This document shows positions 4,601 through 14,073 of a stretch of 64,000 nucleotides of DNA, one piece after another. The notes under the pieces were generated by a model. It had not been told where the DNA came from. It ran no database searches and worked only from the letters and a program-made list of their open reading frames with translations. Position numbers and translations under genes: made by a program. Numbering within the stretch: position 1 is the first letter of the stretch; each line of letters begins with the position of its first letter. The DNA is from Prochlorococcus sp. AG-442-M23 (GTDB lineage Bacteria; Cyanobacteriota; Cyanobacteriia; PCC-6307; Cyanobiaceae), in the NCBI GenBank assembly GCA_003209655.1, contig QCPW01000006.1, positions 1 through 64,000 on the forward strand. The letters run 5' to 3'.

Positions 4601-5947
4601 TTATGGGATTGGATATTTTTTATCTTCTTTTGATATGTAGTAAAAATCCTTACTATGTCTACTTAATTGAATTAATTTTTGATCATCAGTAATTAAAATA
4701 ATTTTACCATTAGTTCCTAATTCAATATCTCTTATTCTATGTCCTATATATATTTTTTCAGATGAAAGAACTCTATTTTCAGCAAAGTCAAAATCCATTA
4801 AAAATAAAGACTTTTCCTTTAAACTTGTAACTAATAATTTGTTATTCCAATATGGAAATTCATTCCCTTTATAAAAAATAATTTCACTAATTCCTATAGA
4901 AGGTGTGAAGTAATAAATAGGCTTTTTATATGGTGCTTCATGAGGAAATCTATACTTTAAATTATTATTATAATCACCACCATAAGAATAAAATGGCCAG
5001 CCATAATGTGCCTTTTCCTCAATTACATTAATCTCATCACCACCTTTTGGACCATGCTCAGTACTAATTAATTTATTTTTATAGACCATTAACCCTTGTT
5101 GATTTCTATGACCCATTGACAAAATTTTATATTTGCCTGAAGAATCTATCTCTATTATTTTGCCAAGTGCATTATTTAATGATTGAGGAATAATATATTC
5201 AGATTTTTTCATATAGTATGCTTCAAAATCTAAGGATCCCACGGTAAGTATAATTTTTTCATTTAATTTCTGAATTCTTCCTCCCGCTGCATGCCCATTA
5301 AAATTCTCATTGCAAGCATTTGTTTTAAAAAACTCTGTAAAATTTAAATCACCTAGAATCTTAGATTTTTTATCATAATTGAAATTTGACTGATATACAG
5401 CAATTCCATAACAACCCTCATTTGTTACATCTGCAGTTAAAGAAGCGTAAATTTTCTTATTTTCTTTATCTAAGAAAATATCTTTAATTCCAAATCTACC
5501 AAAATATGTTGATGGCAATAATTCCCTGAATTTTTGATTATTGAAAATATCATTTAAATTGCTTCTCTGCTTAATTAAAGTTTTATCCTTAATGATGTAT
5601 ATAAACATCTCACCTTTTCCATTAGTACCAATTATTTTCCCATCACCAAAGTAATCTATATATCCACCTGGAAGGCCATATGTCTCACCTTCATTATAGT
5701 TATAAAGAAAATCATTAGCCTCAACAACTTCTTTAACTACACAATGCCATGCGGTGCTTGTTACTTTATTTTGATCATAACAAGGGAATTTACTATCGTC
5801 TCTTAATTCTTTTAGAAAGTTTAAAACTTTAGACTCTTTATCATATCTAAAAACATCTTTGGCAACATAAAAAAATGGCAGACCTAATAAAATAGAAAAT
5901 AATGATAAAAGTAAAATTCTTTTCCTCAAAAATAATAAATTATTCAT
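4601..5947 (-). CDS. PQQ-dependent sugar dehydrogenase-like beta-propeller protein, N-terminal membrane anchor
   Basis: GHRNQQGLMVYKNKLISTEHGPKGGDEINVIEEKAHYGWPFYSYG is typical of glucose/sorbosone dehydrogenase family; hydrophobic N-terminus. Confidence 0.8.
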   Translation of the reverse strand: MNNLLFLRKRILLLSLFSILLGLPFFYVAKDVFRYDKESKVLNFLKELRDDSKFPCYDQNKVTSTAWHCVVKEVVEANDFLYNYNEGETYGLPGGYIDYFGDGKIIGTNGKGEMFIYIIKDKTLIKQRSNLNDIFNNQKFRELLPSTYFGRFGIKDIFLDKENKKIYASLTADVTNEGCYGIAVYQSNFNYDKKSKILGDLNFTEFFKTNACNENFNGHAAGGRIQKLNEKIILTVGSLDFEAYYMKKSEYIIPQSLNNALGKIIEIDSSGKYKILSMGHRNQQGLMVYKNKLISTEHGPKGGDEINVIEEKAHYGWPFYSYGGDYNNNLKYRFPHEAPYKKPIYYFTPSIGISEIIFYKGNEFPYWNNKLLVTSLKEKSLFLMDFDFAENRVLSSEKIYIGHRIRDIELGTNGKIILITDDQKLIQLSRHSKDFYYISKEDKKYPIP

Positions 5948-6256
5948 AATCTAAAAATATTTTTCTTTTACCATTTAAAAAATAACACTACAAAAATATT
6001 TTACTATAAATAAAGTCTTAATAAATTCAATTTGCATAAACATTTTGCCACCGAGTTCTCATACTCTTAGATCCGTCTTTTTCTGCACATAGGCTCTTAA
6101 ACTTTTAAATCAATCGAGAGTTGGTATAATTAATGAACTTTCAGCAATAATCCTATTGCAGAATTTAGCTATATGTACAACTGTCAACCTATATAAGTCT
6201 AATCATTAGATATTTGAGAATCGCTCGAATCTATTACTATTAAAAAGAAAATAGAA

Positions 6257-6302
6257 TGGAGCCAAGGGGATTTGAACCCCTGACCCCCTGCATGCCATAC
6301 AG
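6257..6302 (-). repeat. 3' fragment of a tRNA-Ala gene (attachment-site remnant, direct repeat of part of the tRNA at 12406-12478)
   Basis: Reverse complement CTGTATGGCATGCAGGGGGTCAGGGGTTCAAATCCCCTTGGCTCCA; 41/46 identical to the 3' part of the intact tRNA-Ala; no 5' half present. Confidence 0.9.
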
Positions 6303-6361
6303 TAGCCAAAAGCCTTGCAAATATTGGCAATTACAGGGTTTATGACAGTATTTTAACATAG

Positions 6362-6395
6362 CTGAGAGCAGACATAAGAGCAGAATTGTCCAAAC
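6362..6395 (+). repeat. Left copy of 34-bp sub-terminal direct repeat (ctgagagca-N6-agagcagaattg-N2-...aaac)
   Basis: 26/34 identical to 12292-12325, identical spacing between the two AGAGCA motifs. Confidence 0.7.
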
Positions 6396-6675
6396 GATAA
6401 GAAGTTATTAAATACATTGATATTACTAGATTTTAGTTGTATATTTAATTATACTTTATAGTAAATTTTCATTTAAAAAGGGGCATTTACTAGACCCCTA
6501 TTTATTGATATATATCATTAATACCAATGCTTTTAAAATACTAAAAACAAAAATTTGTTTTGAGAACTAAGTCTTATCAAAGGTTAACTAGAGGAATATA
6601 TACAAAATTTAAACTTTTTTTTTATAATTCACTATTAAATTAATAAACTATATTATTATAAAAAAAAATTTTCAA

Positions 6676-7011
6676 TTGAAGAACCAAATAATTGATCTTG
6701 CTATAGAGTCTTGGCGATTATCAAAATTCACTCAGGAATTAATAGAAGATAGAGATATAACTGAACAAGAAAAATTTAATAGAAAGGTCTTATGGTTTAA
6801 CGATAAATTAGAAAAAATTCTTGAAACTTTAAATATTAAACTTGTTAACTTAGAAGATAGTAAATTTGATATTGGCATGCCTGTTAAAGCAATTAATATT
6901 GAGGAGTTTAAAGGCTGTGAAGAGCTTGTAATTACAAAAATGTTAGAACCAGTTGTTATGTGTGATGATTTGCTTGAAAGAACAGGTACTGTTTTGATTG
7001 GACTGAATTAA
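6676..7011 (+). CDS. Small protein of unknown function upstream of Hsp70; possible GrpE-like nucleotide exchange factor
   Basis: TTG start; ends 2 bp before Hsp70; C-terminal pattern ...ITKMLEPVVMCDDLLERTGTVLIG vaguely resembles the GrpE beta-domain (inference). Confidence 0.6.
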   Translation: MKNQIIDLAIESWRLSKFTQELIEDRDITEQEKFNRKVLWFNDKLEKILETLNIKLVNLEDSKFDIGMPVKAINIEEFKGCEELVITKMLEPVVMCDDLLERTGTVLIGLN

Positions 7012-7013
7012 TT

Positions 7014-9500
7014 ATGAAAAATTTCATTGGAATTGATTTAGGCACCACTAATAGTTCTATCTCTTCTTTTGATGGAGATAAAGTAAAGATTTGGAAAAGT
7101 CCAGAACAAAACGATATAACTCCTTCAGTAATTTTTATGAATAAAAGAACAAAATATTATGGACAAAGAGCTTATGATAATGAACCTTTTAACTCCGAAA
7201 ATACTGCAAAACTTTTTAAGCGTTTTATGGGTACAAGTACAAAAATAGAATTTCCAGCATTGGAATTGAGCAAAACTCCAGAAGAATGTTCTTCAGAAAT
7301 CTTAAGTGTTTTATATGGTTATCTACCAGAAGAAATGAGAAATTCAGATGATACATTTTCCGTAATAACAGTCCCAGCGGCTTTTAATCAAATACAAAAA
7401 ACAGCTACATTAAAGGCTGCTTCTATGGCAGGTATAGGAAAAGTTGCTCTCATGCAAGAACCTATTGCAGCTGTAATGAGTGTGATGAGGTCAGATAACT
7501 CGGATGGTATTTTTTTAATATTTGATCTTGGTGGAGGTACTTTAGATATTGCTATTGCTGAGAGTATAGATGGATCTGTATCTCTCCTTTCACATGGAGG
7601 TATTGCGATGTGTGGAGGGAGAGATTTCGATAGATTACTAGTTAAAGAAGTTATAAAACCATGGCTAGAGGAGAACTTTTTGCTACCCAAAGATTTTTCT
7701 AATATGAAGGATTATGCAACTCTAATTAAGTTATGTAATTGGGCCGCTGAAAAAGCAAAAATTGAACTTTCTTCAAAACATAATTCTTTAATTACACTTT
7801 CAGAAAATGAAATAAGATTGAATGATCTTGATGGAGAGCCTCTATATCTAGATATCCCAATTGATAGAAAAATTTTTAATTCAATTATTGAGGAATATTT
7901 GGAGCAAGCAATTGATTCAATTAGACAAACATTAAAAAAAGTTGGTTTAGCAGAGGAGGATATAGAAAAGATTGTATTTATTGGGGGACCGACAAACTAT
8001 AAACCGCTCAGGGAAAGAATTACATCATCCCTAAATATTGAAGGAAGTACAGAATTAAATCCTATGACTGCAGTATCAGAAGGGGCATCAATATTTGCTG
8101 AATCTATTGATTGGGATTCTATAAATAGAGAACGAAAACGAAGTTCTGCAGAGATTAATGATATTGGCGAATTGAGCTTAAAATTTAATTACCTTGCCAG
8201 AACCCCATCTAAACAATCAAGGCTTAGAATTTCCTTAGAGAAAGATGCCCCGAATAATATTGAATTGGAAATTAAAAGTAAAGATACTGGATGGTCATCA
8301 GGAAGGATAAAAGTTGAAGATGGGACTTCATTAGAGTTGCAACTTTATAAAAGTGGTATAAATAGATTTTTGGCTTCAGTTTTCGATGAGAATGGAACTG
8401 AAATCAAAATAAAGAATAATGAGATTTCTATTACTAAAACAGCAGCATCAATTGATGGAATTCCAGCATCTCACTCAATTGGTGTCGAAGTTCTTGATAG
8501 ATTAGGCGGAAACTCTACTCTTGATTTTATTGTCAAAGAAGGTGATCTTCTCCCTAAAAAAGTAAAAAAGATTTTCAAAACCAGCCAATCTCTTCAGGCA
8601 GGTAAAACTGGATTTATAAAAATAAAGCTTTGGGAAGGAGAGATAAAATCACCAATTTATGACAATAGATATATTGGTAATTTGGAAATAACTGGAAATG
8701 ATTTTTATGAAGGATTCATCCCCGTAGGTGCAGATTTAGAATGTGAATTTGAAGTCTTAGATTCTGGGAATATAGTAATTGGGTTAAAAATACCTTCAAT
8801 TGGCGAAATATTTAATAATAAAAATTTTTATTCTATTCAAGATGGTAAGTACACCTCCGAAACAATGTATGACTTAGCTCAAGATCAAGTAGATAATCTT
8901 ATGGTGCGCTTAGAACAGCTTGAAACAGTAATAACAGATGAGAAAATTCAGAAAGCTAAACAGAAAGTTGATTATATAAGTAAAAATAAAGTCAATGTAA
9001 ATGATCCCGAGGATGTTCAAAAATCTTTAGAAAATGTTCAAGAGAGCAAAAAATTACTTGCTGAAGTGAGGCAAGAACATCTAAAAGATATTCGTAAATT
9101 AGATTTAAAAAAAGCTATGAATACCTTTAATAATTATTCAAAAGAATATTCAACTACATCTGAATCGGAGAAAATTGAAACTCTTTATAATTCAGCGAGT
9201 AAAACTATAGAGCTAGATAATAATAATTTTGAGTTATCTTTAAATCAAATGCATCAAATAAATTATAAAATTCTTTGGCGTCAAGATGAATTTATTATTA
9301 GAAAATTTAAGGAATTTGAAAATTCACCTTATCTATTTTTAGATAAAGAAAATTATAGAAAACTAATAGCTGAGGGTAATGAAATGATATTTAAAGAAAA
9401 TATTATGAATTTAAGAAAAATTCTCAATTCCCTCTGGGGTTTAGTTATATATGATGATGACGAGAATAGGTTGGATGATGCAAATATTTTGAGGGGTTAA
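7014..9500 (+). CDS. Hsp70 family protein (divergent DnaK-like, 828 aa)
   Basis: IGIDLGTTNSSIS, FSVITVPAAFNQIQK, LIFDLGGGTLDIAIAE, IVFIGGPTNYKPLRE; long divergent C-terminal region. Confidence 0.93.
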   Translation: MKNFIGIDLGTTNSSISSFDGDKVKIWKSPEQNDITPSVIFMNKRTKYYGQRAYDNEPFNSENTAKLFKRFMGTSTKIEFPALELSKTPEECSSEILSVLYGYLPEEMRNSDDTFSVITVPAAFNQIQKTATLKAASMAGIGKVALMQEPIAAVMSVMRSDNSDGIFLIFDLGGGTLDIAIAESIDGSVSLLSHGGIAMCGGRDFDRLLVKEVIKPWLEENFLLPKDFSNMKDYATLIKLCNWAAEKAKIELSSKHNSLITLSENEIRLNDLDGEPLYLDIPIDRKIFNSIIEEYLEQAIDSIRQTLKKVGLAEEDIEKIVFIGGPTNYKPLRERITSSLNIEGSTELNPMTAVSEGASIFAESIDWDSINRERKRSSAEINDIGELSLKFNYLARTPSKQSRLRISLEKDAPNNIELEIKSKDTGWSSGRIKVEDGTSLELQLYKSGINRFLASVFDENGTEIKIKNNEISITKTAASIDGIPASHSIGVEVLDRLGGNSTLDFIVKEGDLLPKKVKKIFKTSQSLQAGKTGFIKIKLWEGEIKSPIYDNRYIGNLEITGNDFYEGFIPVGADLECEFEVLDSGNIVIGLKIPSIGEIFNNKNFYSIQDGKYTSETMYDLAQDQVDNLMVRLEQLETVITDEKIQKAKQKVDYISKNKVNVNDPEDVQKSLENVQESKKLLAEVRQEHLKDIRKLDLKKAMNTFNNYSKEYSTTSESEKIETLYNSASKTIELDNNNFELSLNQMHQINYKILWRQDEFIIRKFKEFENSPYLFLDKENYRKLIAEGNEMIFKENIMNLRKILNSLWGLVIYDDDENRLDDANILRG

Positions 9501-9508
9501 AACTAAAA

Positions 9509-11473
9509 ATGGATTTAAATGATAATCCTTTTTATTTATTAAAAGCAAAAACTACTGACGACAAAAGAAAGTTATTAAAACTTTCTGAAGAAGCTCTTCT
9601 AGATAATGATTCATCAAAAATTAACTCAGCTAGACTTGTGTTAAGTAGTCCTAAGAGAAGAATTTTTGCAGAATGTTCTTGGTTTTTAGGCGAAGATAAT
9701 AAGAACCTAGATAGGATTTTAGAATCTATTAAAAATATAAATATAAAAAAAATTGATTTTGATTTAACTAATTTATCTTCGGCTAACTTTTTTGCTTATT
9801 CAATTCTAAATTCAGATTTAAATGAAGATGGTTTATTTTTAATAAAAAATCTTATTATTTTTTTCGATTTTATTGATACTAAAAAAGTACTTGAAGCAAT
9901 TAATCAGGATAGAAAAATAAGCAATATAAAACTTGTTAATGAAGCTAAAGACTTAAATGAAGAGTTTAATAATTTGAGGAGATTTTACATATCAACAATA
10001 CATAAATATTTTGATAAATTAACTATTAATGAGTATTCTAATTTATTTTCAAATATAATTTACGATTTATACTCTGACGGGAAAGAAGAATACACCTTAC
10101 TACCAGAATTAGTAGATAGATATGAATTAACTGCAAAACAAATTATTGATGAAGGAGAAGTTAAAATATCAATGCAAATTGAAGCTATAGAAAAGTATAT
10201 TTCACCAAAGTTTTATAAAGGTAATATTTCACTTGGTTTAATGACAGATAAGTTAATTAAATCAATAAGCGAATGGGTAAAACTTGTAAAGCCTATCCAA
10301 ATAAATTTTGAACGAAGAGGTCTAGTTCATTTACAAAGTAGGAATTTAGCAGTTGTTCTTAGAACACTTGTGGGGAATATATCTGATCTTGATATAAACC
10401 TTTCTCTAGAAATTTCAATTGAACTCAAAAAACAATTTATTGAGATATCAGAAATAAATAATTTAATTAGTCAAGATATTCAATCCTTAACTTTAGCTGG
10501 AGCAAAAATCAAGTCAAAAACTGAATCAAAATTTAAATCAAAAACCCAATCAAAATCTAAATCAAAAAACCAATCAAAATCATCAGAAGTAAAATATAAA
10601 AATTTTAGTGAGGTCAGAAATGAAAAGAAAACTACGAAAAAATCCTTCAAAAAAAGTTTTTTTGGATCTCTTAATTCATTTTTAAGATCTTTTTTATATT
10701 TCGGTTTGATTTCTTTTATTGTATATTTAGCCCCCACAATTTTTGATGATATTAATCAAAATAGTTCGAAAAAAGAAAATAATTTTATAAACAATAAATC
10801 AGATCTTTTATTATCAGGTAATAGACTTTTTGATAATAAAAATTATAAAGATGCAATAGAATATTATAAAAAAGCCTTAGATATTGATCCAAATTATTAT
10901 CAAGCTATTTATAATTTGGGACTTGCTTTTTACCTTTCTAAAAACTATTCCGAATCTGATTTTTATCTAAGAAAAATTATTTCAGGAGAACAATTTGATC
11001 CCTTTGAGAAAATGAAGGCGAACATATTACTTGGTGATAGTCTTTATATGCAAGAGGATTATTCAGCATCAATCGAAGCATATACTAAAGGAATTAAATT
11101 AGATATTAAAAATCCCATTGGGTATCTTGGGAGAGGTAGAGCTTATAAGAAAATTAAAGAATATGATCTTGCTGAGGATGATTTTTTAAAGACTATTAAT
11201 TTAGGTATGAAAAATTCTCTCGTTTATAGGATAATTGCCGCATTTTATTTTGATATAAAAGACTATAAGCAAAGTATTTTCTATTATGATTTAGCAATAA
11301 AAAAAACTGATCAAGATATAGATAATTCTTCTAATTATTTTTTTAGAGGATACTCTAAAAAAAATCTCAATAAAATAAGTGCTGCTTGCCAAGATTTTGA
11401 AACTGCTTCGAAATTAGAACCAAATAACAAAAATTTTGAAAAAGTGTACAAAGGTAATTGTAATTTACAATAA
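9509..11473 (+). CDS. J-domain-like N-terminus + Lys/Ser-rich linker + transmembrane helix + TPR repeats
   Basis: N-terminus NPFYLLKAKTTDDKRKLLKLSEEALL...SARLVLSSPKRRIFAECSWFLG; TM FLRSFLYFGLISFIVYLAPTIF; several TPR motifs (ALDIDPNYYQAIYNLGLAFY). Confidence 0.75.
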   Translation: MDLNDNPFYLLKAKTTDDKRKLLKLSEEALLDNDSSKINSARLVLSSPKRRIFAECSWFLGEDNKNLDRILESIKNINIKKIDFDLTNLSSANFFAYSILNSDLNEDGLFLIKNLIIFFDFIDTKKVLEAINQDRKISNIKLVNEAKDLNEEFNNLRRFYISTIHKYFDKLTINEYSNLFSNIIYDLYSDGKEEYTLLPELVDRYELTAKQIIDEGEVKISMQIEAIEKYISPKFYKGNISLGLMTDKLIKSISEWVKLVKPIQINFERRGLVHLQSRNLAVVLRTLVGNISDLDINLSLEISIELKKQFIEISEINNLISQDIQSLTLAGAKIKSKTESKFKSKTQSKSKSKNQSKSSEVKYKNFSEVRNEKKTTKKSFKKSFFGSLNSFLRSFLYFGLISFIVYLAPTIFDDINQNSSKKENNFINNKSDLLLSGNRLFDNKNYKDAIEYYKKALDIDPNYYQAIYNLGLAFYLSKNYSESDFYLRKIISGEQFDPFEKMKANILLGDSLYMQEDYSASIEAYTKGIKLDIKNPIGYLGRGRAYKKIKEYDLAEDDFLKTINLGMKNSLVYRIIAAFYFDIKDYKQSIFYYDLAIKKTDQDIDNSSNYFFRGYSKKNLNKISAACQDFETASKLEPNNKNFEKVYKGNCNLQ

Positions 11474-11488
11474 TAAAATTAAAATTAT

Positions 11489-12175
11489 ATGGTTTATAAA
11501 TTGTCTAAAAACATAAATAAAAATATTAAATATATTGGATTATATCTTTTAGTAATAATTTCCTTTCTTTTAGTACAAGAAATTATGTTTTATTTGTTTG
11601 ATAGTAACTCTTTTTTATTCTTGCTAGGTTTTTTATTTATACCATCTTGGTTTAATTTGATGCTAATTTCAATTACTCCTCCGTCGTTATTTTTAAGTTA
11701 TTTAGTTATTTATCCTCTTAAGAAGTTATTTAAAAACTGGTCTTATCTGCAAAAAAAGACAGATTTCAAAGATTTTAAAGAACTATTGTTTTTTACTTTA
11801 AAAAATTACTACTTATCACCTTTGAATTTTTTAGATCCTATCTATAGATTAATAATTAATAGACTCTTAAAACATAGAACTATAATTTTGGGTGGAGATT
11901 CTATGGAACCTACAATTTGTGAAGATGATATTATAGTTTATAAATTATTTAATAAAAATCTTTCTAATTTAGATATTGGAAAAATAATCATCTGTAGATA
12001 CAAATTAGATATATTAGTAGGCCGTATTTATTCAATTAAAGACAAATTTATATTAATTACCCCTGATAATAAAAAATATTTGAATTATTATTTAGAAAAT
12101 TATTCAATACCAATAAATAATATCATTGGAATTTATCTTTTTCATAATCCTCAATTAGATTTAAATAAGAAATAA
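11489..12175 (+). CDS. S26 signal peptidase-like membrane protein
   Basis: GGDSMEPTICEDDIIVY serine box; several hydrophobic segments at N-terminus. Confidence 0.7.
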   Translation: MVYKLSKNINKNIKYIGLYLLVIISFLLVQEIMFYLFDSNSFLFLLGFLFIPSWFNLMLISITPPSLFLSYLVIYPLKKLFKNWSYLQKKTDFKDFKELLFFTLKNYYLSPLNFLDPIYRLIINRLLKHRTIILGGDSMEPTICEDDIIVYKLFNKNLSNLDIGKIIICRYKLDILVGRIYSIKDKFILITPDNKKYLNYYLENYSIPINNIIGIYLFHNPQLDLNKK

Positions 12176-12291
12176 TTGCGATCTTTATTTTTAATATCTT
12201 TTGCCATAAATTCAAATAATATTAAAGTTTAAAGTGTCATTTTTATAGGCAATCCAGCAAATTGGAATTCCTGCAAAAATTAAAAACACTT

Positions 12292-12325
12292 CTGAGAGCA
12301 TTTTAGAGAGCAGAATTGACAAAAC
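12292..12325 (+). repeat. Right copy of 34-bp sub-terminal direct repeat
   Basis: 26/34 identical to 6362-6395. Confidence 0.7.
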
Positions 12326-12405
12326 AAGCGTTGACAAGCAGTGAAAAAAGTAATGTGTCTACGAAACCATCTCTAAAAACCCTTGATATAAAATGAAAAA
12401 TTAAG

Positions 12406-12478
12406 TGGAGCCAAGCGGACTCGAACCGCTGACCCCCTGCATGCCATGCAGGTGCTCTACCAACTGAGCTATGGCCCC
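12406..12478 (-). tRNA. tRNA-Ala(GGC)
   Basis: GGGGCCATAGCTCAGTTGGTAGAGCACCTGCATGGCATGCAGGGGGTCAGCGGTTCGAGTCCGCTTGGCTCCA; full cloverleaf, anticodon loop ATGGCAT, acceptor GGGGCCA/TGGCTCC. Confidence 0.97.
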
Positions 12479-12951: not shown

Positions 12952-13950
12952 ATGAGTTTTTTAACTAAAGATAAAAGATTAAAAAAGAAAAATATAGAAG
13001 AATTTAATTCTAGAGGATGGACATTAATAGACTTAAAATTATCTCAAAATATTATAAATAACACCCTAAGAGGATTAGAAAATATAAGGAAAGATGCCAT
13101 AAAAAAAAATTATAAACCAAGAAGAATTTATTATGATCATTTAATTAGTAATAATCTTTCAGCAATAGAACTGCCATTTAATAAAAGTATTTGTAATAAA
13201 GATATTCATAATTTATTTATAAAAGCAAAAATAGGTTCCTTAATTAAATCTTTAATGAACTGGCAAAGTCCTTGTTGTGATCTATCCAGACTTTTTTGCA
13301 TGGGTGATTTTAAGTATAGAGGTAATTGGCATAGAGATTACAAGGGTGATTTAACTACAATTCAAAATAGTTCTTCAGAAAGGAGTGTTCTTTTAGCAGG
13401 AATTTATCTTACTAATCAAAAAGGATTTAGAATTCTAAAAAAGGATTATGACTTTAATGGTATAAAAACGATTATTAAAAATGAATATGTGGAAGATACT
13501 GTAAATTCATTTCAATATCCACTTAATCCTCCAAGTGAATCTTATTATGAAATTGAGGGTAAAGTTGGCCATGTATTATTTTTTGATCCTTTCTTGATGC
13601 ATCAAGGTTCAACATTTGGATCAAGATTTGATTTTCATATGAAATTTTATGATTCTAAAGAGAGCAAATTTAAGAGAAATATTTTCCAGGATTTTGATGT
13701 AATTGATATACTGGATGAAAATCTAGAATTACCTGTAAATTCTCAAGAAATTGCTAAATTTAAAAAATTTCATAAAATTCCATTTGATAAAAAATCTACA
13801 GTTATTCAAAGAATCAGAAATTCAATTGACTATAGAATTGGTTTAAGAAAAATTCTTAAATTTAAAAAAATAAAAAATAGTAAATATAAATTAATCAAAA
13901 AGTCAGGTTGGAATATTGATTGGTTCTCCAATACTCAATGGCAAAAATAG
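12952..13950 (+). CDS. Phytanoyl-CoA dioxygenase (PhyH)-like Fe(II)/2OG hydroxylase
   Basis: NWHRDYKGD (HxD) and GHVLFFDPFLMHQGS with distal His. Confidence 0.6.
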   Translation: MSFLTKDKRLKKKNIEEFNSRGWTLIDLKLSQNIINNTLRGLENIRKDAIKKNYKPRRIYYDHLISNNLSAIELPFNKSICNKDIHNLFIKAKIGSLIKSLMNWQSPCCDLSRLFCMGDFKYRGNWHRDYKGDLTTIQNSSSERSVLLAGIYLTNQKGFRILKKDYDFNGIKTIIKNEYVEDTVNSFQYPLNPPSESYYEIEGKVGHVLFFDPFLMHQGSTFGSRFDFHMKFYDSKESKFKRNIFQDFDVIDILDENLELPVNSQEIAKFKKFHKIPFDKKSTVIQRIRNSIDYRIGLRKILKFKKIKNSKYKLIKKSGWNIDWFSNTQWQK

Positions 13951-14073
13951 TAATCACCATATCATTTTTATACTTAGAAAATATTTCTTAAATTTTATAA
14001 AAGGATAAAAAATTTCTTCTAAATATAGCTTGAGTAAAATTTAAAAAATTATAGAAAGAAAAATCTTTTACTC

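Follow-up and report, generated by a model that had tools for sequence, protein, structure and literature searches.

The segment at 6303-12404 of the Prochlorococcus sp. AG-442-M23 stretch analysed here (64,000 nucleotides, the window) is most probably an integrase-less, cargo-only element of the tycheposon type, which would have been inserted at the anticodon loop of a tRNA-Ala(GGC) gene by a tycheposon tyrosine recombinase; we put the probability of this reading at about 0.9. The segment carries a four-gene operon with a divergent Hsp70, and it lies between two conserved ends, one beside the intact tRNA gene and the other beside a displaced fragment of a second tRNA allele. According to one account (PMC10872708), tycheposons are transposons that carry cargo, are bordered by a tRNA and have a tyrosine recombinase, and another account places those of Prochlorococcus among proposed phage satellites (PMC11389934). 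Our comparisons cover 266 genomes of the genus, namely the window genome (G000) and 265 others (all other G numbers), and position 1 of the window is the first base of its contig (C6:1). The features that delimit the element are the following.

6257-6302, minus strand: displaced tRNA-Ala(GGC) 3' fragment with AGGGG/CCCCT T-arm, attR side (BLAST, 42-mer search, alignment)
6280-6298, unstranded: 19-bp shared core, copy 1, in the anticodon-loop region, identical to 12429-12447
6303-6420, unstranded: conserved distal element end (MODA), 92% identical to the full element in G073 and 72-89% to about 20 other copies
6364-6388, unstranded: putative recombinase arm-site pair GAGAGCAGACATAAGAGCAGAATTG, conserved in the MODA alignment
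12271-12404, unstranded: conserved tRNA-proximal element end (PROX); over PROX and tRNA, 90% identical to G231, 88% to G272 and 83% to G073
12294-12318, unstranded: putative arm-site pair GAGAGCATTTTAGAGAGCAGAATTG, conserved in the PROX alignment
12405-12478, minus strand: intact tRNA-Ala(GGC) with AGCGG/CCGCT T-arm (ARAGORN, pattern search), the 3' half being element-derived under the model
12429-12447, unstranded: 19-bp shared core, copy 2, identical to 6280-6298

The intact tRNA gene and the displaced fragment

According to ARAGORN, the tRNA-Ala(GGC) gene is the sole tRNA in the window. The initial annotation of this DNA had proposed that a 46-nt piece at 6257-6302 matches the 3' part of this gene in the same orientation, and the match was recovered: 41 of the 46 bases agree without gaps, the 3' end facing outward. 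Five shuffles of the region gave 21-23 of 46, and BLAST gave E = 3.2e-11 over the whole genome. The 19-nt identity of 6280-6298 with 12429-12447 (CTGACCCCCTGCATGCCAT) was confirmed letter by letter, and the compensated difference between the T-stems (AGCGG/CCGCT versus AGGGG/CCCCT) had been described correctly. Furthermore, 25 other genus genomes contain an exact copy of the first 42 bases of the fragment, including the AGGGG T-arm, so the fragment comes from a real tRNA gene and not from decay of one copy, as had been claimed. The proposal that the two halves represent host and element held in part. Two real alleles are indeed present, but under the standard integration model the intact AGCGG half would be the element-borne one and the AGGGG fragment the formerly resident one.

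A plain duplication of tRNA-Ala followed by decay, with no mobile element involved, would agree with the one anticodon-stem mismatch in the fragment and with the fact that fragments are common near tRNA-Ala. However, 42 bases of the fragment are identical to a real allele, the fragment is fused to a conserved 118-bp end that is common to full elements, and excision restores a real tRNA (see below). We regard this explanation as very improbable. Chance or simple tRNA decay was also considered, and it was excluded by the E value, the allele of the 25 genomes and the excision product.

Among the intact tRNA-Ala genes printed by a pattern search, there were at least five T-stem versions (AGCGG in most, AGGGG, AGGAG, TGCGG/CGCAG and AGGCG), all of them base-paired. 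In a tally over the loci compared, a D-loop A or G occurred with each of the AGCGG, AGGGG and TGCGG T-arms; this pairing of T-arm versions with either D-loop base fits recombination between tRNA halves. The acceptor 3' strand has to pair with the resident 5' half of the tRNA, and it reads TGGAGCC in the element-linked intact genes that we aligned, a sequence which the pattern search itself demanded. Because the crossover region lies at the anticodon loop, with the whole T-arm on one side, both strands of the T-stem would be swapped as one block. From the alignments and the pattern search, we infer that the T-arm covariation noticed earlier arose by such block exchange. A covarying polymorphism of this kind would then be explained by recombination and not by ordinary mutation.

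Conserved ends and putative arm sites

MODA comprises about 118 bp just inside the fragment, and PROX about 134 bp between the cargo and the intact tRNA. When 4601-6420 was used as a query across the 266 genomes, two classes of matches were returned. The first class contained the fragment and the sequence to its right, which recurred at about twenty places with about 72-92% identity; these frequently lay 1.5-13 kb from an intact tRNA-Ala and on its 3' side. The roughly 134 bp to the left of the intact tRNA likewise recur in the genus. In addition, segments with differing contents are bounded by the same pair of ends elsewhere in the genus. Elements at this tRNA that do carry a recombinase have homologous ends, and in this the segment agrees with tycheposons.

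Both aligned ends have in common a paired motif that resembles the arm sites of a recombinase, either GAGAGC...GAGAGCAG or a GTGC flavour. When flavours were classified by eye, 8 of 9 classifiable pairs had the same flavour at both ends of one element (P about 0.05), an agreement that is suggestive only. The flavour of the G000 proximal end is the one that neighbours recombinases of the G073/G151 type.

At another locus (L135 in G201, 13838-14001), the tRNA-proximal end abuts another tRNA-like 3' end, with the anticodon GGG by eye. Elements with these ends may occur at a different tRNA as well.

The empty site and an older second element

To the left of the fragment, two further features lie outside the element.

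6026-6121, minus strand: broken N-terminal remnant of a second-type tyrosine recombinase (tblastn, G071 N-terminus)
6027-6256, unstranded: tRNA-proximal end of an older second element, beside intact tRNA-Ala in about 13 relatives

The second class of matches to the 4601-6420 query was this left-hand sequence (6027-6256), which adjoins an intact tRNA-Ala in about thirteen genomes. We joined the flanks of the segment in silico at the core, and the product was a canonical tRNA-Ala(GGC) identical at 73 of 73 positions to the genes of G140 and G278. Both of these genomes have an intact tRNA-Ala with a homologue of 6027-6256 on its 3' side. The empty-site allele with the AGGGG T-stem, which the initial annotation had predicted, is thus present in these two relatives as judged by alignment, without the gene at 4601-5947; that gene has only weak short matches elsewhere in the genus.

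It should be noted that 6027-6256 was ruled out as a native, element-free flank: in several relatives its homologue leads into the start of another tyrosine recombinase. For instance, the tRNA 3' flank of G071 matches 6027-6252 of the window with 72% identity over 250 bp (E 2.4e-38), and the N-terminus of the G071 recombinase matches the window with 53% identity over 36 amino acids, interrupted by 2 stops (tblastn, E 0.001). The frame of this second-type recombinase is nearly open in G071, and it has 28-32% identity to the first type (E 1e-16 to 1e-17). We therefore read the earlier event as the insertion of a second-type element, into whose tRNA half the Hsp70-bearing element went. Since the window begins at the contig start, the far end of this outer, older element is out of view.

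Full, decayed and cargo-only relatives

In G073, G115 and G151, a complete or near-complete element lies between the same two ends. These full elements encode a tyrosine recombinase of 429-430 aa, which starts 136-137 bp from the tRNA 3' end, and a small excisionase-like helix-turn-helix (HTH) protein; G073 and G151 also have an AAA protein. They can be called tycheposon-like by gene content and setting, not by comparison with the original set. Meanwhile, six genomes (G268, G093, G095, G162, G063 and G000) have cargo without an intact recombinase between the same ends. In G287, these ends enclose an element whose recombinase is broken. The cargo at tRNA-Ala in G115 (L116) and G287 (L142) reads from its sequence as TonB/ExbB/ExbD/siderophore transport.

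The initial annotation saw no integrase in the segment, and none was found in 6303-12404 by open reading frame (ORF) list, Pfam or recombinase search. A recombinase concealed in the cargo was likewise rejected by Pfam and recombinase search, and an alignment for leftover first recombinase codons to the left of 12271 was unconvincing. Unlike the full elements, the segment has no AAA/helicase-like or excisionase-like HTH hallmark gene among its ORFs and Pfam matches. The tyrosine recombinases of full elements with these ends support the earlier suggestion of a cargo-only form of a tRNA-targeting element. Elsewhere in G000, proteins of the Phage_integrase family show only short, weak matches to the cognate recombinase, and by this comparison the recombinase is absent from the genome, which is about 98% complete.

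The segment may have come in as pure cargo, moved by a recombinase acting in trans, or it may have lost its integrase once in place. In the second case, a complete tycheposon was inserted and later lost its integrase and replication genes, the Hsp70 operon came in or stayed between the ends, and the unit never moved as cargo only; the integration itself is kept, so that this is a sub-model of the reading given at the outset. Relatives show graded decay, with a broken recombinase in G287 and also in G149, a 43-aa remnant in G268 and short remnants at many tRNA-Ala 3' sides, and by these alignments in-place recombinase loss does occur among them. Furthermore, the PROX homology of G000 breaks off close to where the recombinase reading frame begins in full elements, and the cassette match between G000 and G063 is limited to 6651-12201, a span that would allow the operon to have come in by exchange. 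However, between the ends of G000, G093, G095, G162 and G063 the search reported no trace of recombinase coding sequence at E<=1e-3, and several different cargo-only units retain both ends. We give decay in place slightly less than an even chance.

G000 also contains an unrelated phage-type integrase of 426 aa (G000:C1:115623-116072, L199), about 4 kb from a tRNA-Ser(GCT). An integrase near the same tRNA type in G278 is 41% identical to it.

Proposed mechanism

In the preferred reading, a tycheposon tyrosine recombinase of the G073/G151 type would act on core sites in the anticodon loop of tRNA-Ala(GGC), and a crossover within the 19-bp core would split the resident tRNA. The attachment site of the element would bring a new 3' half with the AGCGG T-arm, by which the tRNA gene is restored. 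Meanwhile, the old AGGGG half would be displaced to the far end (6257-6302) along with the end of the older element (6027-6256). The unit retains what the recombinase would need, that is, the core and the putative arm sites within 6303-6420 and 12271-12404. As the cognate recombinase is absent, the G000 unit could move only after the entry of a full element whose recombinase matches, and would otherwise be stable.

A more general proposal is tentative, and we hold it to be rather doubtful. It states that there is a class of integrase-less tycheposons consisting of pure cargo between conserved ends, which are mobilised in trans by full elements with a recombinase matched in arm flavour (GAGC versus GTGC). 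The same family would use the near-palindromic anticodon arm of one tRNA both ways, and turnover would swap the 3' half again and again and so leave a block-wise compensated T-arm polymorphism in an essential gene.

Several observations weigh against a cargo-only tycheposon-type element. The segment has no recombinase, excisionase-like or replication gene, so that it may never have moved as this unit. No excised or virus-borne copy was found, and the end patterns were unmatched in the viral collection. In addition, the empty sites have only about 230 bp of flank in common with the window, and none was found that has the full left neighbourhood (including the 4601-5947 gene); the G000 assembly consists of 27 contigs.

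The Hsp70 operon and its distribution

The cargo operon contains four genes.

6676-7011, plus strand: 111-aa protein, no family match; two helices and beta strands in a moderate-confidence model
7014-9500, plus strand: divergent Hsp70-family ATPase, 828 aa, nucleotide-binding domain 5-389 (Pfam HSP70, E 2.7e-54)
9509-11473, plus strand: 654-aa protein, all-helical N-terminal half and C-terminal TPR repeats (family search, structure model)
11489-12175, plus strand: peptidase S24/signal-peptidase-like protein, 228 aa (Pfam PF00717, E 2.4e-06; weak TIGR02228)

The cargo resembles DnaK/Hsp70 systems in the Hsp70 nucleotide-binding domain, over which alone the protein is recognisable. However, it is about 29-36% identical to other Hsp70s, mainly over that domain, it scores 202.7 bits against the NCBIfam DnaK equivalog cut-off of 822.55, and the accessory proteins have no sequence match to known co-chaperone families. 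The 111-aa protein has no sequence match to GrpE, which Foldseek ranks 16-17 at E 3.5 (not significant). Moderate-confidence structure models gave no significant fold match for this protein or for the N-terminal half of the TPR protein. Most likely, with low confidence, the cassette would be an Hsp70 system devoted to membrane proteins or secreted proteins. A known anti-phage defence system was also considered, and no PADLOC model matched.

Pfam found no virion, packaging or other phage genes in the cargo, which in this respect is unlike a prophage or phage satellite. No relative of the cassette was found in viral contigs, phage records match the Hsp70 nucleotide-binding domain only (about 30-34%), and none of them matches the recombinase.

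With the TPR protein as a query, the cassette was sought in the other 265 genomes, and elsewhere in the genus it occurs only in G063, G209 (AG-347-I04) and, in diverged form, G183 (AG-388-A01). It was not found at the tRNA-Ala site of the window in any of the 265, so the operon is not fixed at this locus in all relatives, in line with the integrated segment first proposed. The initial annotation had suggested looking for the same cargo at other tRNA genes. Copies exist elsewhere; those of G063 and G209 are in a shared locus without a tRNA (L107 and L108), and that of G183 is on the 5' side of tRNA-Ala. In the latter (L109, 8402-13178), the Hsp70 has 53% identity, and the cassette adjoins a 5'-side element end without a recombinase. 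The cassette may thus be cargo on both sides of one tRNA.

The operon might also have been moved from one element or site to another by homologous recombination through the conserved ends or neighbour genes, with site-specific recombination making the older framework only. The G063 and G209 cassettes, which lie away from tRNA-Ala, have 88-89% DNA identity to that of G000, and the similarity is a mosaic: the first two genes are 94-98% identical, whereas the TPR and peptidase genes diverge. Both observations favour such a transfer. However, the homology of G000 to the G063 and G209 loci stops at the operon or close to it. Neither element end lies within it, and the ends thus did not provide the homology there. 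We consider this explanation unlikely. In the G063 and G209 copies, the C-terminal half of the TPR protein and the peptidase gene are far more diverged than the Hsp70.

Comparison with known systems

The segment is like tycheposons in genus, in its tRNA target with a displaced fragment, in its genomic-island setting and variable cargo, and in ends common with recombinase-bearing elements; insertion into a tRNA gene with regeneration of the gene is found here as well. However, it consists of ends and cargo only, and neither a recombinase nor any other hallmark gene lies within it. By its sequence it is an integrase-less relative sharing the ends of recombinase-bearing elements, not a full tycheposon. 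In the same way, it resembles the tDNA islands of Islander (PMC4383910) in its intact tDNA, the same-orientation 3' fragment on the correct side and the anticodon-centred crossover, but it has no integrase within. It thus fails the Islander integrase filter, and such units would be missed by this and other island searches that demand an integrase. Like hitcher genetic elements (PMC11389934), the segment would need the recombinase of another element to move; unlike them, its helper dependence is deduced, and G000 has no helper.

The locus bears on the open question of island-gene exchange among streamlined Prochlorococcus cells, and cargo-only units appear to be one route of gene swapping among these ocean bacteria. 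At one tRNA, one element family offers both ends, an empty site, full helper-type relatives and several cargo-only versions, so trans-mobilisation is directly testable with defined DNA sites and recombinases.

Mirrored elements on the 5' side of the tRNA

In G171 (L237, 9741-16184), a complete element is flanked by a fragment of the tRNA 5' half on one side and by the intact tRNA-Ala on the other, and it encodes a 431-aa recombinase, a 462-aa protein and HTH proteins. Further 5'-side loci are L233, L234, L235, L236 and L140. Islander recorded 5' fragments in only 159 of 3919 islands (PMC4383910). The near-palindromic anticodon arm (CTGCATG-G-CATGCAG) may let elements use both orientations. Homologous recombinases (51-59%) were found about 140-160 bp from the tRNA 5' end in G096, G151, G166, G152 and G181.

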